Below, one piece after another: positions 1,872-41,063 of a DNA stretch of 64,000 nt (position 1 is the first letter of the stretch; every line of letters begins with the position of its first letter). The DNA comes from Pedobacter polaris. Its GTDB lineage: Bacteria > Bacteroidota > Bacteroidia > Sphingobacteriales > Sphingobacteriaceae. The position numbers and the translations under genes were made by a program. The stretch spans positions 310,001 through 374,000 of the forward strand of contig NZ_SWBR01000005.1 in the NCBI RefSeq assembly GCF_005116505.1. Reading direction: 5' to 3'. The notes beneath the pieces are model-generated. The model did not search any database. It was not told where the DNA came from and saw nothing but the letters and a program-made list of their open reading frames with translations.

Positions 1872-2545
1872 TTAGGATTTTTTGGATTTGAGGATCGTAA
1901 GATTACAGCTCTAAAATTCTCCTACGATAATGTATTGAAAATCATATCATCTATTAGCCCTAAAATCTTATTTCAGACAACCTTTACACTAACTTCTACT
2001 TCTGATTATTCTTATATTCAATATTGTCAGGATGATTTAAGTTATAAACCCTTTTATATTCCAAGCTCCTTCCCCCAAAATTAATTAATAATCCTATTGG
2101 TAATTTATAAGCCTGACAATAATTCATAGCTTGATTTAAATGAGAATCATCCAATATTGACACTGCTTTTAGTTCTAACATAATTAAATCTGAAACAAAA
2201 AAGTCAACCCTTCTAGTCCCAATATCAACTCCATCATAAAAAATTGTCATTTCCATTTCTCTGCTAAATGCCAAGCCCTGCTTATTCATTTCAATAGCTA
2301 GAGCCCTTTGGTAAATAACTTCTCGAAACCCACTTCCAAGAACTGTATGAACCTTCATTGCACACCCAATTATTTGATGTGTTAATTCTTTGTGTTTCAT
2401 TTCCTTTATTTTAAAATCTTGTGGGATGATTTTAAAATTTCAATTTAAGGATTAAATTTTATTGGTAGTAAGAAATTCTTCAATTATTGAAATAACGCAA
2501 TTATAAATCCTAACATCTGTTAATCCTAAAAATCCTAATCAAGAC
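1865..2545. mobile_element. Inverted-repeat unit enclosing a GxxExxY gene
   Basis: The 24 bases at 1865-1888 and the reverse complement of 2522-2545 match at 23 positions, both starting GTCTTGATTAGGATTTTT. Further GGATT words continue inward from both ends. The 681-bp unit holds only the GxxExxY gene. A related but gene-less pair of arms is at 61278-61374. I see no clear target-site duplication, so mobility is inferred only from the repeat structure and the second copy. Confidence 0.55.
1996..2400 (-). CDS. GxxExxY family protein (PD-(D/E)XK-like)
   Basis: A 134-residue protein with the family signature at G24, E27 and Y30 (GFREVIY). D66 in the strand RRVDFFV and E76-x-K78 in MLELKAV lay out a PD-(D/E)XK nuclease core, and the C-terminal part (LNQAMNYCQAY, GLLINFG) fits the usual family end. 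The family has no established function, although the fold suggests DNA or RNA cleavage. The gene lies alone inside 24-bp inverted repeats between a lipocalin and dnaE. The putative catalytic residues are all present, so it looks intact. It is named by motif and not by proven activity. Confidence 0.85.
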   Translation of the reverse strand: MKHKELTHQIIGCAMKVHTVLGSGFREVIYQRALAIEMNKQGLAFSREMEMTIFYDGVDIGTRRVDFFVSDLIMLELKAVSILDDSHLNQAMNYCQAYKLPIGLLINFGGRSLEYKRVYNLNHPDNIEYKNNQK

Positions 2546-2600
2546 CATTTTTCTTATTCGATGTTGATAATTTACTGACAAGTTCCCCATCAAAATTCTC

Positions 2601-2608
2601 TATTTTTG
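2601..2608 (+). promoter_or_regulatory. Promoter -7 box of dnaE
   Basis: TATTTTTG matches the Bacteroidota -7 consensus TAnnTTTG, 20 bases before the dnaE ATG. No good TTTG is seen 19-21 bases upstream. Confidence 0.5.
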
Positions 2609-2628
2609 ATCTCCATCAATTCCCTACT

Positions 2629-5600
2629 ATGTACCTGATTTTTGATACCGAAACTACTGGTTTACCACGTAATTACAATGCGCCTATTACCGATACCGAT
2701 AATTGGCCGCGTTGTATCCAAATTGCTTGGCAGTTGCATGATGAGATGGGGAATCTGATTGAGCATCAAGATTACTTGGTGAAACCAGAAGGATTTAACA
2801 TTCCTTATGATGCTGAACGCATACATGGTATTTCTACAGAATTAGCTGCAGAACAAGGGATAGAACTTGCCGAAGTTTTAGGGAAGTTTAATGTCGCATT
2901 AAGTAAATCTAAATTCATTGTTGGCCAAAATGTTGGTTTCGACGTAAACATTATGGGATGCGAGTTTCACCGATTAGGTGTAGACAGCCCAATGGCAACT
3001 ATGCCTGTTTTAGATACCTGTACAGAAATTACTGCCGACTTATTGAAAATACCGGGTGGTAGAGGCGGACGATTTAAATTGCCCACGTTAACAGAGCTGC
3101 ACCAATATCTTTTTGGGGTACCATTTGCCGAAGCACACAATGCAACTGCAGATGTGGAGGCAACTACACGTTGCTTCTTGGAACTGATTAAAAAAGAAGT
3201 TTTTAAAAAGGAAGAATTGCTAGTTGAGGCTGATTATTTTGAACGCTTTAAAGAAATAAATACCGGTCCCATTGGCTCTTTTGGAATTCAACATGCCAAT
3301 TTAAAAACTGAATCTGATAAAATTAGAAAACGCCAGCAGAGCACACAGGCAGGAGGTATTTCTAAACAAACTCTAGCTGGAAACAAAGAAGAATTAGCAA
3401 ATGCAAACTTTACACATTTGCATAACCATACCCAATTTTCTGTACTACAATCTACCATTAGTGTGCCAGATTTAGTTAAAACAGCTGCTTTGCATAATAT
3501 GCCAGCCGTTGCAATGACAGATCATGCGAATATGATGGGTGCTTTCCACTTTGTGAGCAATGTAAGTAAGCATAACAAGGAAATAAAAGCTAAAAATGCT
3601 GCAGCTTTAGAAAAGGGTGAAGAGCCTACGGCACAAATAGTTAAACCAATTGTAGGAGTTGAGTTTTTTGTTTGTGATAACCACTTAGATAAGACCAAGA
3701 AAGATGATGGATACCAAATAGTACTATTAGCTAAAAATAAAAAAGGCTATCATAATTTAGCTAAAATGTCTTCTATTGCTTATACCAAAGGCTTTTACTA
3801 TGTTCCTCGTATTGATAGAAAAGTAATTGAGCAATACAAAAGCGATATCATTGTGCTTTCTGGAAACCTTTATGGTGAAGTTGCAAGCAAGTTGCTAAAC
3901 ATGGGTGAAAAGCAGGCAGAAGAAGCTTTGGTTTATTGGAAGGAGCAATTTGGAGATGATTTTTATTTAGAAATCATGCGCCATGGTCAAGAAAATGAAG
4001 ACCGTGTAAATACAGATTTGGTTGCTTTATCTGCAAAACACAATGTGAAACTTGTTGCAACAAACAATACTTATTACATCAATAAAAAAGATGCAAATGC
4101 ACACGATATTTTGCTGTGTGTAAAAGATGCAGAGAAACAAGCAACACCAATAGGCCGTGGCCGTGGCTATCGCTATGGTTTGCCCAATCAAGAATACTAT
4201 TTCAAGTCTGCTGATGAAATGAAAGCACTTTTTGCTGATTTACCAGAGGCGATTTTAAGCACGCAAGAAATTGTAGATAAAATTGAAGCTTATGAGCTTG
4301 CCCGAGAGGTATTGTTGCCAAAATTTGGTATTCCTGATGAGTTTTTGGTGGAAGAAGATAATACTGATGCAGGGAAACGCGGAGAGAACAAATATTTAAG
4401 ACATCTTACCTATGAAGGTGCGAAGAAAAGATATGTAGAGCTAACAGAGGTCATTATTGAGCGATTGGATTTTGAATTGGCTACCATTGAGAAAACAGGT
4501 TATCCTGGTTATTTTTTGATTGTACAAGATTTTATTGCCGAGGCTCGTAGACGTGATGTTTCTGTTGGGCCTGGTCGCGGTTCTGCAGCAGGATCGGTAG
4601 TTGCCTATTGCTTGTGGATTACTAATATTGATCCTTTAAAATACGATCTCCTTTTTGAGCGTTTCCTTAACCCAGATCGTGTTTCCATGCCCGATATTGA
4701 TATCGACTTTGATGATGAGGGTCGCGGTAGAGTAATGGAATATGTAATCGATAAGTATGGTTCTAGCCAAGTGGCCCAAATTATTACTTATGGTACAATG
4801 GCGGCTAAATCTTCCATCCGTGATACAGCAAGGGTTTTAGATTTGCCTCTTTTTGAAGCTGATAAAATTGCCAAGTTAATACCAAACATGAAATTGGCAA
4901 AAATATTTAATCTGGAGGAAAAGGCACTAAAAGCGGCCATGCGACCAGATGAATATGAGCGTGTAATAGAGTTAAAAGCGTTGTCAATTGCTAAAAATTT
5001 AAGTGCAGAAACCATTGAGCAAGCTATTATTTTAGAAGGTTCATTAAGAAATACTGGTATCCATGCCTGTGGGGTAATTATTACACCAGATGATATTACC
5101 AATTTCGTTCCGGTTGCTACGGCAAAAGATTCTGATTTATATGTTACCCAATTTGATAACTCGGTTGTAGAAAGCGCTGGCTTATTAAAAATGGACTTTT
5201 TGGGGTTAAAAACATTAACTCTAATTAAGGATACGGTTAAATTGGTTAAGAAAAGACACGACATTGATTTAGATCCAGATGCTTTTCCGATAGATGATGT
5301 AAAGACTTATGAACTCTTTCAACGTGGTGAGACTGTCGGCATTTTCCAGTATGAAAGTCCTGGAATGCAGAAATACATGAAAGAACTTAAGCCAACGGTT
5401 TTTGGAGATTTAATTGCCATGAATGCACTTTATCGTCCAGGTCCGATTGCATATATTCCAAGTTTCGTAAAACGTAAAAATGGAGAAGAAGAGATAAAAT
5501 ACGATTTAGAAGCTTGCGAAGAATTACTTAAAGAAACTTACGGGATTACAGTTTACCAAGAACAGGTGATGCTTTTATCGCAAAAATTGGCCGACTTTAC

Positions 5601-7062
5601 GAAAGGTGAGGCAGACGTTTTGCGTAAAGCAATGGGTAAAAAGCAGCGTGATGTTTTGGATAAAATGAAGCCGAAATTTATTAAGCAAGCAGCAGAAAAA
5701 GGTCATGATGAAAAGGTTTTAGAAAAAATTTGGAAAGATTGGGAGGCATTTGCTGAGTATGCATTTAATAAATCTCACTCTACATGTTATGCTTGGATTG
5801 CCTACCAAACTGCTTATTTAAAGGCAAATTATCCAGCAGAATATATGGCTGCGGTACTTTCCAATAACATGAGTGATATTAAACAAGTAGCATTTTTTAT
5901 GGAAGAATGTAGACAGATGGGCGTTACGGTTTTAGGTCCAGATGTAAACGAATCTGATTTAAAATTCTCTGTAAATGCAAAAGGTGAAGTCCGTTTCGGC
6001 ATGTCTGCGGTAAAAGGAGTGGGAGAGAAAGCTGTAGAAAGTATAATAGAAGAAAGAGTGGAAAATGGACCGTATACTAGTGTTTTTGAATTTGCTAAAC
6101 GATCTAATACCCGTATCGTAAATAAAAAAGCTTATGAAAGCTTTGTATATAGTGGTGCTTTTGATGCTTACGGTTTCCATAGAGCCCAATATTTTTATAT
6201 CGGTCCTAATGATAAAATGAATGGCATTGAGAAGTTAATTAAATACGCTAATGATTTCCAGAATAACCAGAATTCATCTCAATCATCTTTGTTTGGTGGT
6301 TCTAAAGCTGATTTAATTTTAGAGCCAACTTTTCCTGTTTCTCCAGAATGGGGATTGATTGACCGTTTGAAGTATGAAAAAGATGCGATTGGGATTTTCT
6401 TATCAGGACATCCCTTGGATGATTATCGTTTTGAATTGACTAATTTTTGCCAACATTCGGTTAAACATTTAGCTGTTGTTAATAAAATTCGTAGCGGCGA
6501 TACCAATGAAGAGATTTTAGCAGAGTTTGAATCGCTTAAAAATAGAGATTTGGTAGTTGGTGGTTTGGTGGTGATGGCTTCACAAAGAATTACCAAAACA
6601 GGTAAACCATTTGGCACATTCATTTTTGAAGATTATGATGACAGTTGTGAGATTGCTTTGTTTGGAGATGATTTCTTGAAATTTAAGCAGTTTTTAACAG
6701 AGGGATATTTCTTGCAGATTAGAGGTAGGGTAGGTGAACGTTTTAGGAAAGAAGGTGATTGGGAATTTAAGGTTACTTCAATAGACTTATTGTCAGAATT
6801 AAGAGATAAACTGACGAAATGTATTACCATTCAAGTGCCTATAGAAGAAATCAATGACGAGCTAATGGAGAAAATAGACGTTCTTTTGCAGGAGAATAAA
6901 GAAAATAGCGAACGCCATAATTGTAAATTGAATTTTGAGGTTTATGATAGGGTAGAGAATTTAAAGTTAGAATTGCCATCAAAATCACTAAAAATAAATC
7001 CTAACAATAAGTTCTTAGAACAATTAACGAAACTCAATGTTGTAAACTATAGATTGAATTAA
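2629..7062 (+). CDS. dnaE: DNA polymerase III alpha subunit with fused N-terminal DnaQ-like exonuclease
   Basis: Replicative polymerase of 1477 residues, about 300 longer than E. coli DnaE. The N-terminal 190 residues form a DEDDh 3'-5' exonuclease: DTETTG at 6-11, an internal VGFD, and H-N-A-T-A-D. After a linker, the PHP domain begins near residue 261 (FTHLHNHTQFSV). The polymerase core shows GPGRGSAAG and the catalytic PDIDID near residue 690, with the third acid in LKMDFLG near 854. The tail has an OB fold near residue 1307 (LVVGGLVV, then TGKPFGTFIFED). The fusion places proofreading and synthesis in one chain. The start follows a TAnnTTTG box and leads straight into the exonuclease motif. 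Confidence 0.96.
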   Translation: MYLIFDTETTGLPRNYNAPITDTDNWPRCIQIAWQLHDEMGNLIEHQDYLVKPEGFNIPYDAERIHGISTELAAEQGIELAEVLGKFNVALSKSKFIVGQNVGFDVNIMGCEFHRLGVDSPMATMPVLDTCTEITADLLKIPGGRGGRFKLPTLTELHQYLFGVPFAEAHNATADVEATTRCFLELIKKEVFKKEELLVEADYFERFKEINTGPIGSFGIQHANLKTESDKIRKRQQSTQAGGISKQTLAGNKEELANANFTHLHNHTQFSVLQSTISVPDLVKTAALHNMPAVAMTDHANMMGAFHFVSNVSKHNKEIKAKNAAALEKGEEPTAQIVKPIVGVEFFVCDNHLDKTKKDDGYQIVLLAKNKKGYHNLAKMSSIAYTKGFYYVPRIDRKVIEQYKSDIIVLSGNLYGEVASKLLNMGEKQAEEALVYWKEQFGDDFYLEIMRHGQENEDRVNTDLVALSAKHNVKLVATNNTYYINKKDANAHDILLCVKDAEKQATPIGRGRGYRYGLPNQEYYFKSADEMKALFADLPEAILSTQEIVDKIEAYELAREVLLPKFGIPDEFLVEEDNTDAGKRGENKYLRHLTYEGAKKRYVELTEVIIERLDFELATIEKTGYPGYFLIVQDFIAEARRRDVSVGPGRGSAAGSVVAYCLWITNIDPLKYDLLFERFLNPDRVSMPDIDIDFDDEGRGRVMEYVIDKYGSSQVAQIITYGTMAAKSSIRDTARVLDLPLFEADKIAKLIPNMKLAKIFNLEEKALKAAMRPDEYERVIELKALSIAKNLSAETIEQAIILEGSLRNTGIHACGVIITPDDITNFVPVATAKDSDLYVTQFDNSVVESAGLLKMDFLGLKTLTLIKDTVKLVKKRHDIDLDPDAFPIDDVKTYELFQRGETVGIFQYESPGMQKYMKELKPTVFGDLIAMNALYRPGPIAYIPSFVKRKNGEEEIKYDLEACEELLKETYGITVYQEQVMLLSQKLADFTKGEADVLRKAMGKKQRDVLDKMKPKFIKQAAEKGHDEKVLEKIWKDWEAFAEYAFNKSHSTCYAWIAYQTAYLKANYPAEYMAAVLSNNMSDIKQVAFFMEECRQMGVTVLGPDVNESDLKFSVNAKGEVRFGMSAVKGVGEKAVESIIEERVENGPYTSVFEFAKRSNTRIVNKKAYESFVYSGAFDAYGFHRAQYFYIGPNDKMNGIEKLIKYANDFQNNQNSSQSSLFGGSKADLILEPTFPVSPEWGLIDRLKYEKDAIGIFLSGHPLDDYRFELTNFCQHSVKHLAVVNKIRSGDTNEEILAEFESLKNRDLVVGGLVVMASQRITKTGKPFGTFIFEDYDDSCEIALFGDDFLKFKQFLTEGYFLQIRGRVGERFRKEGDWEFKVTSIDLLSELRDKLTKCITIQVPIEEINDELMEKIDVLLQENKENSERHNCKLNFEVYDRVENLKLELPSKSLKINPNNKFLEQLTKLNVVNYRLN

Positions 7063-7148
7063 GATTTAAGCTTGGAGTTCAAAGACCAAAGAAAAAAGCT
7101 TTAATCTTTCAGCTTTTAGCATAGCAATGTCAAATTGACAGCAACCTA

Positions 7149-7178
7149 TTGATGGCATTACAATTGATAATATATTTG
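7149..7178 (+). promoter_or_regulatory. Promoter of trxA (-33/-7)
   Basis: TTG at 7149-7151 is followed after exactly 19 bases by TATATTTG at 7171-7178, a near-ideal match to the Bacteroidota sigma-70-type promoter. The trxA ATG is 22 bases further on. Confidence 0.75.
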
Positions 7179-7200
7179 TATATAAATTAAAAAATAAGTT

Positions 7201-7518
7201 ATGGCTTTAGAAATAACAGATGCAAACTTCGAGGAAGTTGTATTAAAATCAGATAAACCAGTATTAGTAGATTTTTGGGCAGAATGGTGTGGTCCATGCC
7301 GTATGGTAGGTCCAGTTGTAGACGAAATTTCAAAAGAATATGAAGGAAAAGCATTAGTGGGTAAGGTAAACGTTGACAACAACCCTCAAATCTCAACTCA
7401 ATTTGGTATTCGTAACATTCCTGCTTTATTGTTCTTTAAAAATGGTGAAGTTGTAGATAAACAAGTTGGAGCAGTTCCAAAATCTGTTTTAGCTGGTAAG
7501 TTAGACGCACAATTATAA
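7201..7518 (+). CDS. trxA: Thioredoxin
   Basis: Cytoplasmic protein-disulfide reductase of 105 residues. The redox motif WCGPC has C30 and C33 after the VDFWAEW strand, and the cis-proline loop is RNIPALLFF. There is no signal peptide, so this is the general thioredoxin reduced by thioredoxin reductase and supplying electrons to partners such as ribonucleotide reductase and the Bcp peroxiredoxin at 17635-18096. It is monocistronic, with its own strong promoter and a rho-independent terminator 70 bases after the stop codon. Confidence 0.97.
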
Positions 7519-7586
7519 CAACAAGGTTGAGGTTGGAAGGCTGAAGATAAATCAAGTCTATTCATCTTTAATACTAGATATATTAA

Positions 7587-7617
7587 AATCCGAACTCAAA
7601 TGAGTTCGGATTTTTTA
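7587..7617 (+). terminator. Rho-independent terminator of trxA
   Basis: ATCCGAACTC pairs with GAGTTCGGAT around an AAAT loop and is followed by a run of T. Confidence 0.85.
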
Positions 7618-7658
7618 TTGCCAATTTTTTTTTGTTCTTTTAAGAAAATCCCTGTTTT

Positions 7659-8867
7659 ATGAAATATTTTAAATTTCCCTTAGCTAGTTTATTTGCAGCA
7701 AGTTTTTTATTAAGCTGTGTAAATAAAACTGAAGTTTCTGCGCAAAATTCAGTAGAAACTGGAAAACCAACTGCAGATTATAAACCAGCCTTTGATGGTC
7801 AAACTAGAATTAAAGCGGTTAAAACCTCAACACCAATCAGTATTGCTGTAATCAATAAAAAATTAGAAAACCCTTGGGCAATTTCGGTAATGCCTGATGG
7901 TAGGTTTTTCATTACCCAAAAAGGCGGTACAATGGTTATTTTATTGGCCAATGGAACATTATCTAAAACAATAACAGCGCTTCCGAAGGTAGATGACTCA
8001 GGTCAAGGCGGCTTATTAGATGTAACCTTAGCACCAGATTTTGCGAAAAGTAGAATGGTTTATTGGGCATATTCAGAACCTCAAAGCAAAGGTGTTTTGT
8101 TAGCTATTGCAAAAGGTAAATTATCTGCCAATGAAACAAGCATAGAAAATCAAACCATCATCTATAGGGCAACACCAGCGCACACAGGTAAACTACAATA
8201 TGGCTCACGAATAGTTTTTGATAAAAACGGGAATCTATTTGTAAGTACGGGAGAACGTTCTGATAAAAATATCAGGGTGCAGGCTCAATATTTAAATTCT
8301 TCTTTGGGTAAAATTCTTCATTTAACTCCAAATGGAGAAGCAGTTCCTAATGGTCCCTTTGCAGGTAAAAGTAATGCTAGGCCAGAGATTTATGCTTATG
8401 GCCTTCGTAATCCAGATGGTTTGGCAATTAATCTTGCAACAGGAGAGCTTTGGGAAGCAGAATTTGGTCCAAGAGGAGGAGATGAGATAAATTTAATTAA
8501 ACCTGGTAAAAACTACGGCTGGCCCGTTATTACTTATGGAACAGAATACAGCGGGCAAAAAGTTGGTGATGGCATTCAGCAAAAAGCAGGAATGGAGCAA
8601 CCAGTTTATTACTGGAGCCCAGTTATTTCTCCTGGCAGTATTGCTTTTTATACAGGTAATATTACCGAGTGGAAAGGCAATTTATTTGTTGGAGCCTTAA
8701 GTGGTTCACATATTATTAGATTAGTAATTAAAGCCAATAAAGTTGTAGGTGAAGAAAGATTACTAGAAGACAAAGGTGAGCGTTGGAGAGACTTGGTTAC
8801 AGGGAAGGATGGTGCTTTATATGGTGTAACTGATGGTGGGAATTTATACAGGATTGCAAAGAAATAA
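7659..8867 (+). CDS. PQQ-dependent sugar dehydrogenase-type lipoprotein (GSDH family)
   Basis: A 402-residue exported protein. The signal peptide ends in a lipobox, LLSC, with the lipidated C20. The rest is a six-bladed propeller of the glucose/sorbosone dehydrogenase family: NPWAISVMPDG opens the fold, GQGGLLDVTLAPDF and YGSRIVFD follow, and YGLRNPDG, EAEFGPRGGDEINL and NYGWPVITYG are hallmark segments. Family members such as E. coli Asd/YliI oxidise aldose sugars with PQQ. No PQQ synthesis genes are visible here, and many bacteria that lack them still carry this family. The substrate is therefore not predicted. It is flanked by a terminator upstream and a repeat-rich gap downstream. Confidence 0.85.
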   Translation: MKYFKFPLASLFAASFLLSCVNKTEVSAQNSVETGKPTADYKPAFDGQTRIKAVKTSTPISIAVINKKLENPWAISVMPDGRFFITQKGGTMVILLANGTLSKTITALPKVDDSGQGGLLDVTLAPDFAKSRMVYWAYSEPQSKGVLLAIAKGKLSANETSIENQTIIYRATPAHTGKLQYGSRIVFDKNGNLFVSTGERSDKNIRVQAQYLNSSLGKILHLTPNGEAVPNGPFAGKSNARPEIYAYGLRNPDGLAINLATGELWEAEFGPRGGDEINLIKPGKNYGWPVITYGTEYSGQKVGDGIQQKAGMEQPVYYWSPVISPGSIAFYTGNITEWKGNLFVGALSGSHIIRLVIKANKVVGEERLLEDKGERWRDLVTGKDGALYGVTDGGNLYRIAKK

Positions 8868-8883
8868 TAGTCAAACTAAAAAA

Positions 8884-8953
8884 TGTCATCCTGAGCTTGT
8901 TGAAGGAATCTTTTTATTTAATTATTGTCTTTGACTACGCTCAGACTGACAAT
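8884..8953. repeat. Dispersed GTCATCCTGAGC-type repeat, inverted
   Basis: TGTCATCCTGAGC at 8884-8896 is an imperfect inverted match of GCTCAGACTGACA near 8939-8951. The first arm continues TTGTTGAAGGA, the usual form of a dispersed intergenic repeat seen again at 10103. Confidence 0.65.
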
Positions 8954-9039
8954 CCTTGTTTTACCATTCTTTTGGCGTCTCAACGACCGAATACTTGCTT
9001 AATTCGAAAAGCAGTTTCAGTGCTAATCGGTTTCTAAAA

Positions 9040-9092
9040 CCCTGCTAAATGCTTTGCTCACTTCGTTCGTGCTCGCTTATATCAGGTTTATT
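9040..9092. repeat. Degenerate CCCTGCT...ATCAGGTTTATT repeat, copy 1
   Basis: CCCTGCT at 9040-9046 and ATCAGGTTTATT at 9081-9092 bracket a GC-richer, non-coding stretch. The same two words bracket 43972-44032. The remainder of the 8868-9140 gap shows no gene. Confidence 0.5.
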
Positions 9093-9140
9093 GAACAAAA
9101 GGTTAGTACTGAAAAATTATTTATTTATTAGCTTTACACT

Positions 9141-10061
9141 ATGGCAACCATAAATCAATATGAAAACTTACAGCTAAGTTCTAATTTAGAGCTCTTGGCG
9201 CGACAAGTTGTTGAAGGATTTATTACTGGCCTACATAAAAGTCCTTTTCATGGATTTTCTGTCGAGTTTGCCGAACACCGTCTATATAATACTGGCGATA
9301 GTGTAAAGAATATTGATTGGAAATTATTTGCCAAAACAGATAAATTATTCAGTAAGCGGTATGAAGAAGAAACTAACTTGCGTTGCCAATTTGTAATCGA
9401 TACTTCATCTTCAATGTATTTTCCAGCTGATAAATACAATAAACTAATATTTGCAGTTCAGAGCACAGCTTGTTTAATGTATCTTCTCAAAAAGCAAAGA
9501 GATGCATTTGGGTTGAGTTTATTTACAGACCAAGTAGGCTTAAACACACAGGCAAAATCTACCAATACACATCAAAAATATTTATTTGCACAACTAGAGC
9601 AGGTTTTGCAACAGCCTAAAATGAATATCCAAACTAATTTGGCTTTAGCTTTGCACCAAATTGCAGAGCTGATCCACAAACGTTCATTGGTAATTGTGTT
9701 TAGTGACATGTTGCAAACTGTTCATGATGAAGATAAAATCTCTGCTCTATTTTCTTCTCTGCAGCATTTAAAATTCAATAAGCATGAGGTAGTAATTTTT
9801 AATGTCACAGATAAAAGTAAGGAAGTAGATTTTGACTTTGCAAACCGGCCGTATGAATTTATTGATATGGAAACTGGAACAGTTTTAAAAGTACATACTT
9901 CTAAAGTTAAAGATGCCTATTTAGCACAAATGAAAGATTACCGCCAAAAGCTAACCTTAAAATGCGCACAATATAAAATTGATATGGTTGACGCTGATAT
10001 TAATGAAGGTTTTGATCATATTTTACAAGCCTATTTAATAAAGAGGCAGAAGATGGGGTAA
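9141..10061 (+). CDS. DUF58 domain protein (von Willebrand A-like)
   Basis: A soluble 306-residue protein of the DUF58 family. The diagnostic segment is VEFAEHRLYNTGDSVKNIDW near residues 40-60, followed by KLFAKTDKLFSKRYEEE; the vWA-like fold starts at FVIDTSSSMYF, with a MIDAS-like DTSSS. DUF58 proteins usually sit with MoxR AAA ATPases and BatA/BatB-type vWA proteins, acting as chaperones for metal loading or envelope stress. Here no moxR or bat gene is adjacent within the window, so this copy stands alone. It ends in a gap holding a dispersed repeat and a terminator shared with the opposing histidine kinase. Confidence 0.88.
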   Translation: MATINQYENLQLSSNLELLARQVVEGFITGLHKSPFHGFSVEFAEHRLYNTGDSVKNIDWKLFAKTDKLFSKRYEEETNLRCQFVIDTSSSMYFPADKYNKLIFAVQSTACLMYLLKKQRDAFGLSLFTDQVGLNTQAKSTNTHQKYLFAQLEQVLQQPKMNIQTNLALALHQIAELIHKRSLVIVFSDMLQTVHDEDKISALFSSLQHLKFNKHEVVIFNVTDKSKEVDFDFANRPYEFIDMETGTVLKVHTSKVKDAYLAQMKDYRQKLTLKCAQYKIDMVDADINEGFDHILQAYLIKRQKMG

Positions 10062-20552: not shown

Positions 20553-21059
20553 TTATAAAACAGAAATCTTCTTTACAATCTGCTCACCGCCAGCAATGAT
20601 CTTTAAAAAGTACATTCCTGCATTTAGTTTACTAGGAATAGTGTATGTTTTTGTTTGTTCGCCAGCTGGAGAACGCTCATTTGCTAAATTTAACACATCG
20701 TTACCCAACATATCTGTAATTTTTACAACAAGTAATATATCTCTATCTAAGCGTAAACTAACATTAATCTGTTCACTTACAGGGTTTGGATAAACTTTTA
20801 AAACACTTAATATTTTAGCAGTTTTTGTTGGCGTTACAGATGAAGAGCTGCTGCCAGAGTTAAAACTTACATTACTAGGCTTATATGGTGTGATGTTGGC
20901 CTTAATTTGAGGTACTTTATTTATAACTTTAGCCTTTGGCTTAAAAGATATTTTTGAGGTATCTACCTTTTGCGCAAAAACACTCGAACCCAATAAAACA
21001 ATCATGCAAATTGTGCATAGTATACTCCATGAGAACGCTATTTTTGGCTTTAACTTCAT
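20553..21059 (-). CDS. T9SS type A sorting-domain protein
   Basis: A 168-residue secreted protein. It starts at the ATG at 21057-21059 and opens with a signal peptide ending SSVFAQ. The middle is Lys/Thr/Ser-rich and low in complexity. The C-terminal 80 residues form a T9SS sorting domain: LKVYPNPVSEQINVSL, ITDMLGNDV, then LNAGMYFLKI and KKISVL. Such domains guide passengers through the type IX system and are usually removed. The passenger part is very short and shows no enzyme motif. A longer TTG start at 21074 is rejected because it overlaps the promoter -7 box. Confidence 0.85.
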   Translation of the reverse strand: MKLKPKIAFSWSILCTICMIVLLGSSVFAQKVDTSKISFKPKAKVINKVPQIKANITPYKPSNVSFNSGSSSSSVTPTKTAKILSVLKVYPNPVSEQINVSLRLDRDILLVVKITDMLGNDVLNLANERSPAGEQTKTYTIPSKLNAGMYFLKIIAGGEQIVKKISVL

Positions 21060-21071
21060 CTTTACTGGCAG

Positions 21072-21104
21072 CAAAAATATAAATAATTAAACAAAGAAAT
21101 CAAA
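21072..21104 (-). promoter_or_regulatory. Promoter of the T9SS-sorted protein (-33/-7)
   Basis: On the minus strand TTTG at 21104-21101 is followed after 21 bases by TATTTTTG at 21079-21072. The predicted start site leaves an 8-9 base leader. Confidence 0.65.
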
Positions 21105-30375: not shown

Positions 30376-31104
30376 ATGAATCAAGAAGTAACTCCTTACG
30401 CAGACGAAACCACCAAAAAAGAACAAGTAGCTACTATGTTCAACAACATTTCTGGTACCTACGATTTTTTAAATCACTTCCTTTCTTTAGGTATCGATAT
30501 CATTTGGCGACGCAAAGCGATAAAAGAATTAAAATCTATTCAACCAAGAATGATCTTAGACGTAGCAACAGGAACGGGAGATTTTGCATTTGAATCTATT
30601 GACATCCTACAGCCTGATAAAATAATAGGAGTTGATATTTCCGAAGGCATGTTGGAAGTGGCTAAGAAAAAAATTCACGACCGTAACTTAGGGCATATTT
30701 TCTCTGTTCAATTGGGAGATTCTGAAGGATTGAATTTTGAAGACAATACCTTTGATGCAATTACAGTAGCATTTGGTGTTAGAAACTACGAGAACTTAGA
30801 AAAGGGTCTTTCAGATATGCTACGCGTATTAAAACCTGAAGGTAAAATAGTGATTTTAGAATTCTCTAAACCTAAAACCTTCCCTATAAAACAAGGATAT
30901 AATTTCTATTTCCAATATGTAACACCATTCTTTGGTAAATTATTTTCTAAAGATAGTAGAGCTTATACCTACTTGCCCGAATCTGTAGCAGCATTTCCAG
31001 ATGGGGAGTCTTTCACTAGCTTAATGGAAAAAGTAGGTTATAAAAATACCAAACATCGTCCTTTAACGTTTGGAATAAGTGCTATTTACACAGGTATTAA
31101 ATGA
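30376..31104 (+). CDS. ubiE: Demethylmenaquinone methyltransferase (UbiE/MenG)
   Basis: A 242-residue SAM-dependent methyltransferase for the final C-methylation step of menaquinone synthesis. The SAM motif is LDVATGTGDFAF near residue 61, and the preceding MFNNISGTYDFLNHFLSLGID and following FGVRNYENLEKGLSDMLRVL are family signatures. The next gene, porT, starts inside its stop codon (ATGA overlap), which implies translational coupling. The linkage of ubiE to porT is a known arrangement in Bacteroidota with gliding or T9SS genes. Confidence 0.95.
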   Translation: MNQEVTPYADETTKKEQVATMFNNISGTYDFLNHFLSLGIDIIWRRKAIKELKSIQPRMILDVATGTGDFAFESIDILQPDKIIGVDISEGMLEVAKKKIHDRNLGHIFSVQLGDSEGLNFEDNTFDAITVAFGVRNYENLEKGLSDMLRVLKPEGKIVILEFSKPKTFPIKQGYNFYFQYVTPFFGKLFSKDSRAYTYLPESVAAFPDGESFTSLMEKVGYKNTKHRPLTFGISAIYTGIK

Positions 31105-31850
31105 GAAAAAAAATAACGCTTTTTCTTTTCGTTTTTCTTTTTACTATAGGCTTTGCTAATGCCCAAAATTGGGGTGGGGGCATAGATGATGAGCGCTTTA
31201 ATTGGGGATTTAGCTTTCAATACATCATTTCGGAATATAAACTTATTAAAACTAAAAATTGGAGGGAGCCTTATTTTGATATGGAACAAGGAAGGTATGT
31301 TACTGACCCTTTAACGTCTATTTCTTCTCCAACATCGGCAGGCTTTGGAATTGGATTTGTGATAAATAGTAACCTTACCCCAAATTTAGATATTCGTTTT
31401 ACTCCCTCACTTGTTTTTAACGACCGACTGCTAAATTACAGTTATGAAGAGCCTGCTATAAATAATCCCGGAGTTTCATTAACGCAAAAGAAAGTGCAGG
31501 CTACTATGATTGATCTTCCGGTAGGATTAAAATTAAAATCTGATCGATTAATGAATTTTAGGGCTTACATGCTTGGTGGACTAAAATACTCAATGGATTT
31601 AGCATCTGGAAAAAAGACAAATGATGCGGCGGCGGCACCTATAGATAAGCTAGTTAAAAATACAAAAAGCTTTTTGTCTTATGAAGCAGGTATAGGTTTT
31701 GATATTTATTTCGAATACTTTAAAATGTCTCCAGAGGTAAAATTATCTTATTCTTTTAATGATGTTTTGAGACACGAAAATAATCCATATTCAAATCCGA
31801 TAGACAAGGCTAAGCTCAGACATTTTACTTTTAGCTTATTTTTCGAGTAA
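31101..31850 (+). CDS. porT: PorT family outer-membrane protein (T9SS)
   Basis: A 249-residue protein with a signal peptide ending GFANAQ and a beta-barrel type mature part. ISPTSAGFGIGFVINSNLT-like strands, NLDIRFTPSLVF, MIDLPVGLKLKSDR and the end FTFSLFFE fit the PorT/SprT group, an outer-membrane protein required for type IX secretion. It is coupled to ubiE by a 4-base overlap. The gene context matches porT in T9SS-bearing Flavobacteria. Assignment rests on order, size and motif style, and a generic beta-barrel protein is the alternative. Confidence 0.75.
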   Translation: MRKKITLFLFVFLFTIGFANAQNWGGGIDDERFNWGFSFQYIISEYKLIKTKNWREPYFDMEQGRYVTDPLTSISSPTSAGFGIGFVINSNLTPNLDIRFTPSLVFNDRLLNYSYEEPAINNPGVSLTQKKVQATMIDLPVGLKLKSDRLMNFRAYMLGGLKYSMDLASGKKTNDAAAAPIDKLVKNTKSFLSYEAGIGFDIYFEYFKMSPEVKLSYSFNDVLRHENNPYSNPIDKAKLRHFTFSLFFE

Positions 31851-34769: not shown

Positions 34770-35651
34770 ATGAAAATAGCAATTTACGGAAGAGATTTTA
34801 ATGATAGTGTTTTACCATTTGTACAACAAGTATTTAACGCATTGTCATTATATAAAATTGAAATAGTAGTTTTTTCTAAGTTTCATAATTTTATAAAAAA
34901 CAAGGTTACTTTACCTCCAGACACAGCAACCTTTTCTGGTCACCAAGAATTATTAGCTATGGGAGATGTTTTGCTAAGTCTTGGCGGAGATGGAACTTTA
35001 TTAGATACCCTTTCTTTAGTTAGAGATTCCCAAATTCCGGTTATAGGAATCAATTTTGGTCGTTTAGGCTTTTTAGCAAGTATCAATAAAAATGAAATAG
35101 ATACTGCAATTGATGCCCTTGTTAAAGGTGAATACTCATTGGATAAAAGAGGAATTCTAAATTTAGAGTCTCAAAATAATCTATTTGGAGATGAAAATTT
35201 TGCGTTAAATGACATGACCATTCATAGAAGAGATAACTCAGCTATGATGATCATACATGCCTATATGAATGGAGAATTTGTAAACTCTTATTGGGCAGAC
35301 GGGCTTATTATAGCTACACCAACAGGTTCTACTGCCTATTCATTAAGCTGCGGTGGGCCAATTATTTTGCCTAATGCACAAAGTTTTGTTATTACCCCAA
35401 TAGCCCCACATAATTTAAATGTAAGGCCAATTATTGTTCCAGATGACGTAGAATTAACTTTTGAAATTGAAGCAAGAAGTACAAAGTTTTTAGTTTCATG
35501 TGATTCGAGAACAGAAACAGTTGATAGATCAGTTAAAATAACAATCAATAAAGCGAAATTTAATGTAAATCTAATTCGCCTTAACAATGAAAGTTACCTT
35601 ACTACGTTAAGGAATAAATTACTTTGGGGCATAGATACCCGTAACTACTAA
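34770..35651 (+). CDS. nadK: NAD kinase
   Basis: A 293-residue kinase that makes NADP from NAD and ATP. GGDGTLLDT at 72-80 is the catalytic and nucleotide-binding motif, NFGRLGFLA follows, and the second site is ALNDMTIHR. ATPTGSTAYSLSCGG is the family signature near residues 178-192. It is followed within 2 bases by the DUF6089 gene. The cytoplasmic enzyme supplies NADPH precursors for lipid and wall synthesis. Confidence 0.96.
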   Translation: MKIAIYGRDFNDSVLPFVQQVFNALSLYKIEIVVFSKFHNFIKNKVTLPPDTATFSGHQELLAMGDVLLSLGGDGTLLDTLSLVRDSQIPVIGINFGRLGFLASINKNEIDTAIDALVKGEYSLDKRGILNLESQNNLFGDENFALNDMTIHRRDNSAMMIIHAYMNGEFVNSYWADGLIIATPTGSTAYSLSCGGPIILPNAQSFVITPIAPHNLNVRPIIVPDDVELTFEIEARSTKFLVSCDSRTETVDRSVKITINKAKFNVNLIRLNNESYLTTLRNKLLWGIDTRNY

Positions 35652-35652
35652 A

Positions 35653-36459
35653 ATGCGCTACATTAAATCTGTTCAACTTATACTGATTTCAATATTTTTA
35701 TCTAGTACAGCGTTTGCACAACAAATTGAACTAGGTATTAATGCTGGCGGAGCGTCTTATCTTGGTGATCTTAACCAATACAATCCAATAAAAATTAGTG
35801 GAATATCTGCAGGAGCTTTCATTAAAGTAAATCTAGATCCACATTGGGCGGTTGGTTTACATTATAACTACGGTAAAATTAAAGGTGCAGACTCTCTTTC
35901 CAGTTATGCGCAATTTAGAGATCGTAATCTTAGTTTTTATACTCCATTAAATGAAGTAAGTCTATTACTCCAATTTAATTTTTTCGACTTGTATTCCCCG
36001 GGAGGAAAAAGACGCTTTTCCCCATATATTTTTGCAGGTATTGGAGCTGTTGTTTTTGAGCCGAAAACAGAATATAAGGATAATGAGTATTTGTTGAGGC
36101 TTTACAATACGGAAGGGCAAAGTATGGCGTATAAAAAACATTCATTAACTATTCCTTATGGTGTGGGAATTAAATATAGATATACTGAAAGCTTAACTAT
36201 TTTTGGGCAGGCTGGTTACAGAAGTCCATTTACAGATTACATAGATGATGTTAGTGGGTTATATGCTAAAAACAACTCTTGGAGTGGCAATAATGCCGAA
36301 ATTAGCAGAGCACTGGCTGATCGTTCTGGAGAGAAAACAGGGAATTATATAGGTAGTCCCGATACCCAAAGAGGAGATTTTAGAAAAAGAGATAATTACA
36401 TGTTTGTAGGTATTGGGATATCTTATACCTTTGTGAGCCAAAAATGTTTTACTTTTTAG
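35653..36459 (+). CDS. DUF6089 outer-membrane beta-barrel protein (PorG candidate)
   Basis: A 268-residue exported protein with the signal peptide ending SSTAFAQQ and a mature part made of alternating beta strands (IELGINAGGASYLGDLN, FIKVNLDPHWAVGLHYNYG, then GIGISYTFVSQKCF at the end). It has an aromatic C-terminus as expected of an outer-membrane barrel. The position between nadK and uppS-bamA is the position of PG0189, porG, in Porphyromonas gingivalis, where PorG is a T9SS component. Identity with PorG is inferred from synteny and style. Confidence 0.7.
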   Translation: MRYIKSVQLILISIFLSSTAFAQQIELGINAGGASYLGDLNQYNPIKISGISAGAFIKVNLDPHWAVGLHYNYGKIKGADSLSSYAQFRDRNLSFYTPLNEVSLLLQFNFFDLYSPGGKRRFSPYIFAGIGAVVFEPKTEYKDNEYLLRLYNTEGQSMAYKKHSLTIPYGVGIKYRYTESLTIFGQAGYRSPFTDYIDDVSGLYAKNNSWSGNNAEISRALADRSGEKTGNYIGSPDTQRGDFRKRDNYMFVGIGISYTFVSQKCFTF

Positions 36460-36477: not shown

Positions 36478-37218
36478 ATGGGATTTAAAGAGCAAATAGA
36501 TATTAATCGATTACCAGAACATATTGCCATAATCATGGATGGCAATGGCAGATGGGCAAAAAACCAAGGAAAATTTAGAGTCTTTGGGCACGAGAGTGGT
36601 GTCTTATCTGTAAAAGATATTGTGGAAGGTTGTGTAGATATTGGGATTAAATACCTAACTGTTTACGCGTTTTCTACTGAAAATTGGAACCGCCCAATAG
36701 AAGAAGTTAATGCTTTAATGGAGCTTTTGATTTCTACTATAAATGAACAAGCAGAAACACTAAATAAAAATAATGTAAGACTAAATGCCATTGGCGATTT
36801 AAAATCATTACCACAGAAATGTATTGATGATTTGGCTAATGTGATGGAGATAACCAGCAAAAATAGTAGATGTACTTTAACATTAGCATTAAGTTACAGT
36901 GCAAAATGGGAAATATTAGAAGCTGCTAAGAAAATTGCCCAACAAGTTGAAGAAGGGAAAATGAAATTGAGTGAGATTAATGAAGATGTTTTTGCAGCTC
37001 AATTAACCACTACAAATATCCCCGATCCAGAATTAATGATACGTACCAGCGGTGAACATAGGATAAGTAATTTTTTACTTTGGCAAATGGCGTATACTGA
37101 ATTATATTTTACTGAAACCCTATGGCCAGACTTTAGAAGAGAGGATCTTTTTGAGGCCATAGTAGACTACCAAAAACGCGAACGACGCTTTGGAAAAATT
37201 AGTGAACAACTGAACTAA
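36478..37218 (+). CDS. uppS: Isoprenyl transferase (undecaprenyl diphosphate synthase)
   Basis: A 246-residue cis-prenyltransferase that makes the C55 carrier lipid for peptidoglycan and O-antigen. D21 in IAIIMDGNGRWAKNQ is the essential Mg-binding Asp; VYAFSTENWNRP follows, and the end has RTSGEHRISNFLLWQ and YTELYFTETLWPDF. Full length. It lies directly upstream of bamA, as in many Bacteroidota and Proteobacteria. Confidence 0.97.
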   Translation: MGFKEQIDINRLPEHIAIIMDGNGRWAKNQGKFRVFGHESGVLSVKDIVEGCVDIGIKYLTVYAFSTENWNRPIEEVNALMELLISTINEQAETLNKNNVRLNAIGDLKSLPQKCIDDLANVMEITSKNSRCTLTLALSYSAKWEILEAAKKIAQQVEEGKMKLSEINEDVFAAQLTTTNIPDPELMIRTSGEHRISNFLLWQMAYTELYFTETLWPDFRREDLFEAIVDYQKRERRFGKISEQLN

Positions 37219-37281: not shown

Positions 37282-39822
37282 ATGAAAAGAATATACCAAC
37301 TTATATTTTTGTTATTGATTGGTTCGCCAGCAATAGCTCAAATCCGTAATCAGCCTACACAGGCAACTCCTTCTTTAAAAGTTAATGGGTTAAACCTTGA
37401 CTACTTTAGCCCGAAAGAATACATCATTGGAGGTACAACTTTATCTGGCACACAATATCTTGATAAAGAAGTAATTATAACGCTTTCTAAATTATCAAAG
37501 GGAGAAAGAATAATTTTACCAGGAGAAGCTACAGCTAATGCAATTAAAAATTTATGGGCTCAAGGATTATTTGACGATATACAATTGTATGTTACAAAAA
37601 TTAATTTAGATACTGTTTATTTTGATATTCAGGTAGTAGAACGCCCTCGCTTAAGTTCTTTTGAATTTATAGGGATTAGCAAATCTCAAAAAACTGATAT
37701 TTCTGAAAAATTAGCTGATAAAGCTGGTAAAACCATTATCAATGATAATCTTTATAATACCACAAGAAGTATCATTAATAAGTATTTATTTGAAAAAGGA
37801 TATTTTTATACTACTATAGACTTCGAATCTAAAAAAGATCCTAATCAAGAGAACAGTGTAATCTTACAAGTTAAAATCAATAAGGGCAAGCGTGTAAAAG
37901 TGCATGAAATTACATTTACTGGTAATTCTGCTTTTAAATCTGGTAAACTGAGAAAATATTTGAAAAAAACTAAGCAACAGGCTTTCTATAAGGTTTTTGG
38001 TAGTGGTAAGTTCAATAAAGAGAAATACGAAGAAGATAAAATAAAACTCGTTGCTAAAATGCAAGAAAAAGGTTACAGAGATGCAGCCATTTTAAAAGAT
38101 AGCATTTATAAATACAACGATAAATCTGTTGGTATTAAAATAGACCTTTACGAAGGTCCTAAATATTACTTTGGAGACATTAGTTGGGTTGGTAACGCTA
38201 AGTATACAACTGAATATTTAAAGAAAGTATTTGGTATTGAAAAGGGTGAACTTTTTAGTGAAGAAAAATTAGAGAAGAAATTGCGTGGTAGTGCTAACGG
38301 AGACGATGTATCTAGCGTTTACTTAAATGATGGATACTTAACTTTCAATATAGATCCTGTACAAACTAAAATCCATAGTGATACAGTTGACCTTGAAATG
38401 CGTATTTATGAAGGCCCACAATTCACTAACAATAAAATAACAGTTAAAGGAAATACGATTACGAACGATAAGGTTGTTTTGCGTGAAATTCGTATGAAAC
38501 CTGGAGAGAAATTTTCGAAAGAATATTTAGTAAGAAGTGTTCGTGAAATAGGGGCTTTAGGTAATTTCGATGAATCTAAAACCAATCCAATTCCAAAACC
38601 TAATGCAGACGGTACAGTTGATATTGAATTTAATGTTGAAGAAAAACCTTCTGATCAAATTGAATTATCAGGTGGTTTTGGTGGTGGCCGAGTAATTGGT
38701 ACTTTAGGATTAACATTTAATAACTTCTCTTTAAAAAATATATTTAATGGTGAAGCTTATAAACCGCTACCTAAAGGAGATGGACAAAAATTAAGCTTAC
38801 GTGGACAAACTAATGGTAAATATTACCAATCTTATAGTTTCTCGTTCTCTGAGCCTTGGTTAGGTGGTAAAAAACCAGTTAGTTTTGGTTTAAGTGCCTT
38901 TACTTCCCTACAATCAAACGGAATAGATGTAGACAATAGCCAATATCAAAAAATACGTTTAAATGGTGTTTCAATTAGTTTAGGAAGAAAATTAAAATGG
39001 CCTGATAACTGGTTCTCTTTGGTTCACACAGTGAATTTAAACCAGTACATCTTAAATAACTATCCTGGATATTTATTTAGTACAGGTACTTCTTACAATT
39101 TAAACTTAACACAAGAGATTGCTAGAGATTCTAGAAATCATAATATCTTCCCAACTGGTGGAGCATATATAAGATTTACAATTCAAGCAACACCACCATA
39201 TTCATTGTTAAACAATGTAAATTATGCTACAGCTTCAGATAAGCAACGTTATAAATTTACTGAGTATCACAAATGGAAATTCGAAGCACAATGGTTCCAA
39301 AATGTAGTTGGTAAATTAGTATTTAAAGCACAAGCACAATTTGGTTTCTTAGGTAGTTATAACCAAGCAGTTGGTCAATCAGCTTTCGAAAGATTTAAAT
39401 TAGGTGGTGATGGGATGCAAGGTTTCGACTTCTTACAAGGATCTGAGTTAATCGCAATGCGTGGCTATTCAAATAACTCAGTTATTCCTGTAGGTGCTAA
39501 TGTAACTACTGCACAAAGCTCAGGAAGTCCTATCTTTAACAAATATGTAATGGAGTTAAGATATCCGGTAATTAGCAGTCAACAAGCAACAGCGTTTATG
39601 ACGGTTTTTGCTGAGGGTGGTAACACATGGAATAAGTTTAGCGATTTTAATCCGTTTAATGTAAGACGTTCTGTAGGTGTTGGAGCAAAGATATTTTTAC
39701 CGATATTTGGATTGTTGGGTATAGATTATGGTTATGGGTTTGATAAAATTCCGGGTATTCCAGATGCAAACAAAGGTCAATTCCACTTTAGCATAGCGCA
39801 ACAATTAGGAGGGTTTAACTAA
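37282..39822 (+). CDS. bamA: Outer-membrane protein assembly factor BamA
   Basis: An 846-residue outer-membrane protein that inserts beta-barrel proteins. A signal peptide (LLLIGSPAIAQ) is followed by about five POTRA domains over roughly residues 50-450, visible as repeated segments such as ITLSKLSKGERI and the G-x-N-beta-strand pattern (ITFTGNSAFK, ISWVGNAKY, ITVKGNTIT), then the 16-strand barrel with FGGGRVIGTLGLTFNNFSL. The C-terminus ends in a short GGFN instead of the more usual aromatic residue. Confidence 0.95.
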   Translation: MKRIYQLIFLLLIGSPAIAQIRNQPTQATPSLKVNGLNLDYFSPKEYIIGGTTLSGTQYLDKEVIITLSKLSKGERIILPGEATANAIKNLWAQGLFDDIQLYVTKINLDTVYFDIQVVERPRLSSFEFIGISKSQKTDISEKLADKAGKTIINDNLYNTTRSIINKYLFEKGYFYTTIDFESKKDPNQENSVILQVKINKGKRVKVHEITFTGNSAFKSGKLRKYLKKTKQQAFYKVFGSGKFNKEKYEEDKIKLVAKMQEKGYRDAAILKDSIYKYNDKSVGIKIDLYEGPKYYFGDISWVGNAKYTTEYLKKVFGIEKGELFSEEKLEKKLRGSANGDDVSSVYLNDGYLTFNIDPVQTKIHSDTVDLEMRIYEGPQFTNNKITVKGNTITNDKVVLREIRMKPGEKFSKEYLVRSVREIGALGNFDESKTNPIPKPNADGTVDIEFNVEEKPSDQIELSGGFGGGRVIGTLGLTFNNFSLKNIFNGEAYKPLPKGDGQKLSLRGQTNGKYYQSYSFSFSEPWLGGKKPVSFGLSAFTSLQSNGIDVDNSQYQKIRLNGVSISLGRKLKWPDNWFSLVHTVNLNQYILNNYPGYLFSTGTSYNLNLTQEIARDSRNHNIFPTGGAYIRFTIQATPPYSLLNNVNYATASDKQRYKFTEYHKWKFEAQWFQNVVGKLVFKAQAQFGFLGSYNQAVGQSAFERFKLGGDGMQGFDFLQGSELIAMRGYSNNSVIPVGANVTTAQSSGSPIFNKYVMELRYPVISSQQATAFMTVFAEGGNTWNKFSDFNPFNVRRSVGVGAKIFLPIFGLLGIDYGYGFDKIPGIPDANKGQFHFSIAQQLGGFN

Positions 39823-39837
39823 TTAGCATTTACACAA

Positions 39838-40368
39838 ATGAAAAAATATATATTAGCCAGCTTTTTGCTTTTAATCGGATTAGGGGCATCAGCGCAAAAA
39901 TTTGCTTACGTAGATACTGAGTATATCCTTAAACATTTACCAGACTACAAAGCTGCACAAAGTCAATTAGACGGTTTATCTAAGCAATTTCAAAAACAGG
40001 TTGATGATAACTTTTTAGAAATCGACAAAATGTACAAAGCTTACCAAGCAGATCAGGTATTGTTAACAGATGATATGCGTAAGCGTAGAGAAAATGACAT
40101 TATTGAAAAGGAAAAGAAAGCTAAGGAAATGCAACGTCAAAAGTTTGGCCCTGAGGGAGAGCTTTTTCAAACACGTATTAAGCTATTAAAACCTATTCAA
40201 GAAAAGGTTTCGACAGTGATTGGTGAAACGGCAAAAAACAAATTTATTGATTTTGTTTTTGATAAGAGTAGCGAATCTACAATGATGATTTATGCAAGTA
40301 GCAATTATGACATCAGTAATGACGTTATAGTTAGATTAGGTTACAAACCTGGTACAATTGTAAAATAG
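39838..40368 (+). CDS. OmpH/Skp family periplasmic chaperone 1
   Basis: A 176-residue exported protein. The signal peptide ends LGASAQ, and the mature form starts KFAYVDTEYILKHLPDYKAA, the beginning of the Skp/OmpH fold, then long charged helices (KQFQKQVDDNFLEIDKMY, MRKRRENDIIEKEKKAKEMQ) and the C-terminal FIDFVFDKSSES strand. Skp trimers hold unfolded outer-membrane proteins before BamA takes them. It is the first of two neighbouring paralogues after bamA. Confidence 0.93.
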   Translation: MKKYILASFLLLIGLGASAQKFAYVDTEYILKHLPDYKAAQSQLDGLSKQFQKQVDDNFLEIDKMYKAYQADQVLLTDDMRKRRENDIIEKEKKAKEMQRQKFGPEGELFQTRIKLLKPIQEKVSTVIGETAKNKFIDFVFDKSSESTMMIYASSNYDISNDVIVRLGYKPGTIVK

Positions 40369-40418
40369 GCAAACAAACACACAATCAATTATAAAACAAT
40401 TATTAAGTAAAATAGAAA

Positions 40419-41003
40419 ATGAGAAAGTTAATTAACGTATTATTTGTAGCAGCTGGGTTATTACTTACTGCCAATGTTGCAAATGCACAACAAAAGTTAG
40501 GTCATTTAAACTCTGATGAGATTTATGCAACTATGCCAGAGGCAAAAGCAGCTCAAGCTAGTTTAGAATCATTGGCTAAAACAAAACAAGGTGAGATTGA
40601 TAAAATGATCACAGAATATCAAGCTAAACTTAAAGCAGCACAAGACAAAGAAAAAACTTTAAGCGAAGCTAACAAAGAAGTTGTAGGAAAAGAGTTGCAG
40701 AATGCACAAGTAGAATTGCAAGACCTTGGTAAGAGAATTGAAGATGCTCGTACTAAAGCTACTACTGATGTTCAAACTGAACAAGGAAGACTTTATCCGC
40801 CAATTAACCAGAAACTATCTGCAGCTATGGGTGCAGTAGCTAAAGAAAAAGGTTTAGCTTATGTTTTTGATATTTCAGCTTCATCTGGCTTTAACAATTT
40901 AATTTATTTTGATGGTGGTGAAGATATTACTGCTGCTGTTAAAACTAAATTGGGTATTTCTGCAAGTGCAACTCCAGCAAAAACTCCAGTTAAAAAGAAC
41001 TAA
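40419..41003 (+). CDS. OmpH/Skp family periplasmic chaperone 2
   Basis: A 194-residue paralogue of the previous gene. The signal peptide ends NVANAQ, and the mature protein starts KLGHLNSDEIYATMPEAKAA, with helices KGLKAAQDKEKTL-like and a longer Ala/Pro/Lys-rich C-terminal tail (ATPAKTPVKKN). The tail is absent from copy 1. Tandem Skp-like genes after bamA are a standard Bacteroidota trait; the two copies may form hetero-oligomers or serve different clients. A strong terminator follows directly. Confidence 0.93.
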   Translation: MRKLINVLFVAAGLLLTANVANAQQKLGHLNSDEIYATMPEAKAAQASLESLAKTKQGEIDKMITEYQAKLKAAQDKEKTLSEANKEVVGKELQNAQVELQDLGKRIEDARTKATTDVQTEQGRLYPPINQKLSAAMGAVAKEKGLAYVFDISASSGFNNLIYFDGGEDITAAVKTKLGISASATPAKTPVKKN

Positions 41004-41028: not shown

Positions 41029-41063
41029 AGCGGAATAGGTTTCAATACCTATTCCGCTTTTTT
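41029..41063 (+). terminator. Terminator of the ompH genes, ending 3 bases before murI
   Basis: AGCGGAATAGGT pairs with ACCTATTCCGCT around a TTCAAT loop and is followed by six T (41058-41063). The murI ATG is at 41067-41069. Confidence 0.9.

Follow-up and report, generated by a model that had tools for sequence, protein, structure and literature searches.

The closest described counterparts of the gene considered here belong to the type IX secretion system (T9SS). In F. johnsoniae, PorG (Fjoh_1692) is an eight-stranded outer-membrane barrel whose periplasmic, cysteine-bearing tail is disulfide-bonded to Cys343 of GldK, and it has been proposed that the moving track acts on the translocon by force transmitted through PorG, as laid out in the 2025 report (PMC12635249). 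The same source names Cys356 of PorK, in an RGCF motif, as the P. gingivalis equivalent of GldK Cys343 and as partner of the single tail cysteine of PorG (PG0189). It also describes F. johnsoniae SprF as another outer-membrane protein attached to the GldK cysteine that PorG uses, although SprF is a gliding adhesin carrier and not a core T9SS part. Furthermore, PorG has been counted among 17 T9SS components of Sphingobacteriia, according to PMC7323717. Both the occurrence of PorG in Sphingobacteriia (PMC7323717) and the disulfide and force mechanism (PMC12635249) are already in print.

Here, we analysed a window, that is, the whole stretch of 64,000 nucleotides presented above, and conclude with a probability of about 0.9 that its gene at 35653-36459 encodes the Pedobacter-type PorG of the T9SS. 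A previous reading of the sequence alone had proposed this identity, having noticed a signal-peptide beta-barrel gene between nadK and uppS-bamA-ompH-ompH. The open reading frame, the family matches and the coordinates bear out that description, and the identity itself is supported by the equivalog score, the barrel with its cysteine tail, the cysteine of the partner GldK, the nadK/uppS neighbourhood and the loss of the gene together with SprA and PorT in 14/14 genomes. PorT, which had been placed at 31101, scores well above its own family cut-off. The features of the window are as follows.

31101-31850 (+): porT/sprT, another T9SS gene of the window (NF052311, 197.9 bits, cut-off 125)
34770-35651 (+): nadK, upstream of porG with a 1 bp gap (NF002521, 422.7 bits)
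35653-36459 (+): porG (DUF6089), encoding a predicted outer-membrane beta-barrel protein of 268 aa (NF052316, PF19573, AlphaFold model)
35653-35718 (+): predicted signal peptide, residues 1-22, ending in AFA and followed by Q23-Q24 (QQ), from the sequence, with helix 2-19 in the model
35722-36432 (+): eight-stranded barrel, residues 24-260 (DSSP on the AlphaFold model; generic eight-strand matches in the PDB), with strands at residues 24-37, 48-60, 65-79, 94-109, 122-135, 163-176, 181-192 and 248-260 (DSSP on the model)
36433-36456 (+): C-tail, residues 261-268, predicted to be periplasmic, unstructured past strand 8, pLDDT of the last block 63
36445-36447 (+): codon of Cys265, the putative disulfide partner of GldK, invariant in 30/30 aligned sequences
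36478-37218 (+): uppS, downstream of porG with an 18 bp gap (TIGR00055, 301 bits)
37282-39822 (+): bamA, same operon (TIGR03303, 306 bits)
39838-41003 (+): two ompH (Skp-like) genes at the end of the operon, 39838-40368 and 40419-41003 (PF03938, 118 and 97 bits)
41029-41058 (+): intrinsic terminator-like hairpin of 12 pairs plus a T run, after ompH and before murI (murI named by eye, without a family call)

The reading frame is intact and open from ATG to TAG, and at the signal peptide boundary A22 is nearly invariant and Q23 invariant among 30 aligned sequences. The source genome belongs to the Sphingobacteriaceae; in a tree of NadK+UppS, a Pedobacter MAG comes out as its closest named relative (88% over 539 columns), and this MAG also yields the best named PorG match (60% identity). 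Both nadK and uppS lie within 600 bp of porG in 63 of 83 loci, for which short flanks were read and one locus (L029) was entered on the wrong strand. Among 80 loci from named relatives, likewise read with short flanks, both genes are found within that distance in 22 and uppS in 50. The nadK/uppS/bamA order around porG recurs across the class, and porG adjoins uppS in Bacteroidales MAGs. That relatives with the same tail occupy the same slot in many genomes argues, far beyond chance, for a genuine gene.

The protein reaches 150.4 bits against the NCBIfam equivalog NF052316 (T9SS_PorG; cut-off 130, release 20.0). It also matches Pfam DUF6089 (PF19573) with 94 bits, well above the cut-off of 23.2, but Pfam assigns no function to this family and NF052316 says more; Pfam OMP_b-brl matches as well. 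The protein is a typical representative of an established family, and the name PorG predates this work, being used for the family in NCBIfam 2026. Searching the PDB by sequence gave no match. Structure prediction, which had been put forward as a check on the proposed identity, yielded a confident AlphaFold2 model (mean pLDDT 92.1, pTM 0.84) from an alignment of 54 sequences, namely the window protein and 53 of the 80 loci from named relatives. In the model, a helix at the signal peptide precedes eight main strands, and the eight residues after them form a tail that contains Cys265; the number of strands suggests an outer-membrane barrel with a tail that would be periplasmic. Because Foldseek against the PDB retrieved generic eight-stranded barrels only (such as OmpA, OprF and OmpW), the fold is consistent with PorG but not diagnostic of it.

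Seven columns are invariant in the 30-sequence alignment, whose mean column identity is 31%, and Cys265 (of 268 residues) is among them. A cysteine past the last strand is present in 84/84 PorG sequences read, a set that includes one duplicate gene (L085 = L164) and half of a frameshifted gene (L159), and in 79/80 from named relatives, the exception being L256. Most Sphingobacteriaceae read have just this one cysteine in the tail, and it persists even in genus g107, whose short and diverged PorG shows 21-23% identity. On the side of the proposed partner, the GldK of the same genome (L063; 524 bits) carries the motif KGCLQANFK, whose cysteine aligns with position 356 (RGC) of PorK in PDB 9mzu, and the reactive cysteine occurs in 65/65 canonical GldK examined. 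By analogy with F. johnsoniae, a disulfide between Cys265 and GldK would probably form in Pedobacter too. The tail of F. johnsoniae PorG is Cys-X-Cys (225/227), a pattern seen here in the PorG of L005 (229 aa, cysteines at 225 and 227), whereas the window protein has one cysteine, and therefore no intramolecular donor disulfide is possible within its tail. PG0189 shares the single cysteine, but the GldK motif of the window's genome is KGCL instead of RGCF, and the link to this PorG runs through the NCBIfam model.

We thus propose that PorG, exported by Sec, would form an eight-stranded barrel in the outer membrane, leaving a short periplasmic tail whose Cys265 may be disulfide-bonded to the conserved cysteine in the track or ring protein GldK/PorK, by homology with F. 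johnsoniae. The GldL/M motor would move GldK/N and would therefore drag PorG through the membrane. Through PorG, force may in turn reach the SprA translocon and perhaps expel carrier proteins that are loaded, which is a speculation of the authors of PMC12635249. Disulfide and force transfer in the Pedobacter protein would both follow the F. johnsoniae case. A T9SS PorG that acts without the disulfide, through non-covalent contact with ring or translocon, could account for the partial SprB export by F. johnsoniae lacking the PorG cysteines, as reported in PMC12635249, and would fit single-cysteine tails, in which the donor disulfide suggested for CxC tails cannot arise. We nevertheless regard it as improbable, given a cysteine kept in 84/84 and 79/80 sequences although mean column identity is about 31%, and retained in the g107 proteins.

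Presence and absence across genomes, a comparison also suggested by the sequence-only reading, place PorG with the T9SS: in the Sphingobacteriaceae the gene tracks SprA, PorT and cargo. SprA is found in 137 of 151 genomes of the family and missing from 14, and PorG scores above its cut-off in 127. The 24 genomes without an above-cut-off PorG consist of the 14 lacking SprA, five incomplete assemblies, three with a diverged porG, and G205 and G305. Eight apparent cases of SprA without PorG were thereby dismissed: in five (G217, G235, G261, G271, G326) uppS was not found either, so the slot is absent from the assembly, and in three (G223, G239, G251) the nadK-uppS slot holds a diverged, short porG. 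In G205, porG is cut at a contig end. Altogether, porG occurs in 132/132 SprA-positive genomes with the slot assembled, 127 of these above cut-off, and is absent from 14/14 SprA-negative genomes, where nadK and uppS are still adjacent (Fisher p about 8e-20 for the co-occurrence of SprA and porG, uncorrected for kinship). G305 (L159), a single-contig genome with SprA, has a porG split by a frameshift, through either sequencing error or recent damage.

Mapped onto the NadK+UppS tree, the T9SS-negative label must change six times, with at least four of these changes on well-supported branches, so the joint loss of porG and T9SS has recurred. Two of the 14 genomes, G210 (E 5e-8) and G324 (E 1e-8), retain decayed remnants of porG between nadK and uppS, recognised against close T9SS-positive relatives:

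L166, about 1343-1482: decayed porG remnant in a T9SS-less genome
L177, about 1048-1236: decayed porG remnant in a T9SS-less genome

Within a set of 24 genomes, PorT was found in 10/10 SprA-positive and 0/14 SprA-negative members (E<=1e-15), and type B CTD cargo (TIGR04131) in 9/10 versus 0/14; the window's own genome encodes nine type B CTD proteins. Members of the family in genomes fully without a T9SS, named by the sequence-only reading as a finding that would refute PorG, were sought, and none was seen among the resolved cases, including the 14 Sphingobacteriaceae. If porG is useful only where both the translocon and a cysteine-bearing GldK are present, this would explain its disappearance along with the system from an operon whose other genes persist.

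The operon itself might point elsewhere. Embedded tightly with uppS, bamA and two ompH genes in an order that recurs across the class, the protein could be an outer-membrane biogenesis factor for BamA, Skp/OmpH or lipid carriers that merely resembles PorG. We rate this slightly below even the non-covalent PorG and reject an accessory role for BAM or lipid carriers, because the loss affects only porG: nadK, uppS and bamA are kept in 14/14 SprA-negative Sphingobacteriaceae, and this repeated porG-only loss largely refutes it. Moreover, a tail cysteine of this kind is known to pair with GldK (PMC12635249). An uncharacterised small barrel that plays no part in the T9SS, caught by a generic barrel model as the OMP_b-brl and Foldseek matches might suggest, has a negligible chance, being contradicted already by an equivalog score above the curated cut-off and by co-loss with SprA, PorT and cargo.

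As a T9SS component, PorG is an expected part of such a genome, and the added weight comes from the natural knock-outs, in which the translocon is lost, porG decays and its neighbours stay. These lend independent evolutionary support to the 2025 disulfide-tether model. In the accessible parts of the open-access literature searched, we found neither this repeated porG loss with decaying remnants nor the clade of cysteine-less GldK described below.

A further protein of the window had been taken as T9SS-sorted and hence as support for a system. The short protein encoded at 20553-21074 (-) does match Por_Secre_tail, but exactly one short protein with this tail is found in each of the 14 SprA-negative genomes (E<=1e-5), and it adjoins kup, as in the window, in 5/5 of those inspected (G002, G210, G231, G256, G319). 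Because its orthologue is retained in genomes without SprA, the protein is no marker of a working T9SS; either its role does not depend on the T9SS, or the tail has another use.

We extended the comparison to a class sample of 247 genomes (SprA at E<=1e-100, PorG at E<=1e-15), of which 238 have both SprA and PorG, five have neither and four are discordant: SprA only in G486 and G523, PorG only in G395 and G504, with completeness of 70% for G523 and 56% for G504. A phylum sample of 198 genomes included 149 from outside the class, 106 of these with SprA-like proteins; PorG or GldK above cut-off was found in none of the 149, where a divergent GldK is possible. Bacteroides ihuae, one of 14 named control genomes, gave no PorG or SprA match. 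Because SprA-like proteins occur outside the class without above-cut-off PorG or GldK, PorG follows the joint presence of the translocon and a GldK with the cysteine, as expected of an adaptor between them.

The SprA-negative genomes also bear on the motor. Several retain homologues of GldK, GldL, GldM and GldN, which in the one checked (G002) score above the NCBIfam cut-offs; no GldK was found at E<=1e-60 in G211, G230, G309, G324 and G339. A second GldK forms a separate monophyletic clade (support 100/100) and lacks the reactive cysteine in 15/15 members examined, including copies beside canonical GldK in T9SS-positive genomes. Accompanied by its own GldN, and often by its own GldL, GldM and a small barrel, this cysteine-less GldK survives without SprA, PorG, PorT and type B cargo:

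L064 (G002), 3701-9314, and L143-L147: paralogous gldKLMN cluster in T9SS-less genomes, with cysteine-less GldK and an adjacent gene for a small barrel (the stretch read of L143 does not include gldL and gldM)

The small barrel gene is part of the cluster in G002, G231, G282, G288, G319 and G334; the G002 protein reaches only 17.5 bits against the PorG model, and its tail lacks a cysteine. In T9SS-positive genomes (L148-L156), the cysteine-less GldK is an extra copy, mostly with only its GldN, with a full extra gldKLMN cluster in L153 and the gldK alone in L156. G256 (L141) and G275 (L142) differ from these: SprA, PorG and PorT are all absent, yet a canonical gldKLMN persists and its GldK has the reactive cysteine, so retention of this cysteine is not due to PorG alone. 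We tentatively suggest, at somewhat under even odds, that the motor and track of Sphingobacteriaceae GldKLMN may have split from type IX secretion into an envelope machine free of T9SS and of disulfide clients, PorG being the adaptor that would define the secretion version. Searches of the open-access literature turned up nothing that addresses a T9SS-independent GldKLMN or DUF6089. In T9SS-less bacteria that keep the GldKLMN motor, the other work of this motor could be studied directly.

Several minor observations concern relatives of PorG. On the nadK side of porG, L029 encodes at 2259-3161 (-) a PorG-like paralogue without the tail cysteine, and in the phylum sample a longer PorG-like match lies beside porG in other genomes too. 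A small-genome lineage (1.7-1.8 Mb; L161-L163) has a short, diverged PorG of 194-213 aa in which the tail cysteine is retained. PorG is reported missing in Saprospiria in PMC7323717; Saprospira grandis DSM 2844 (L228) encodes a PorG relative with a tail cysteine.
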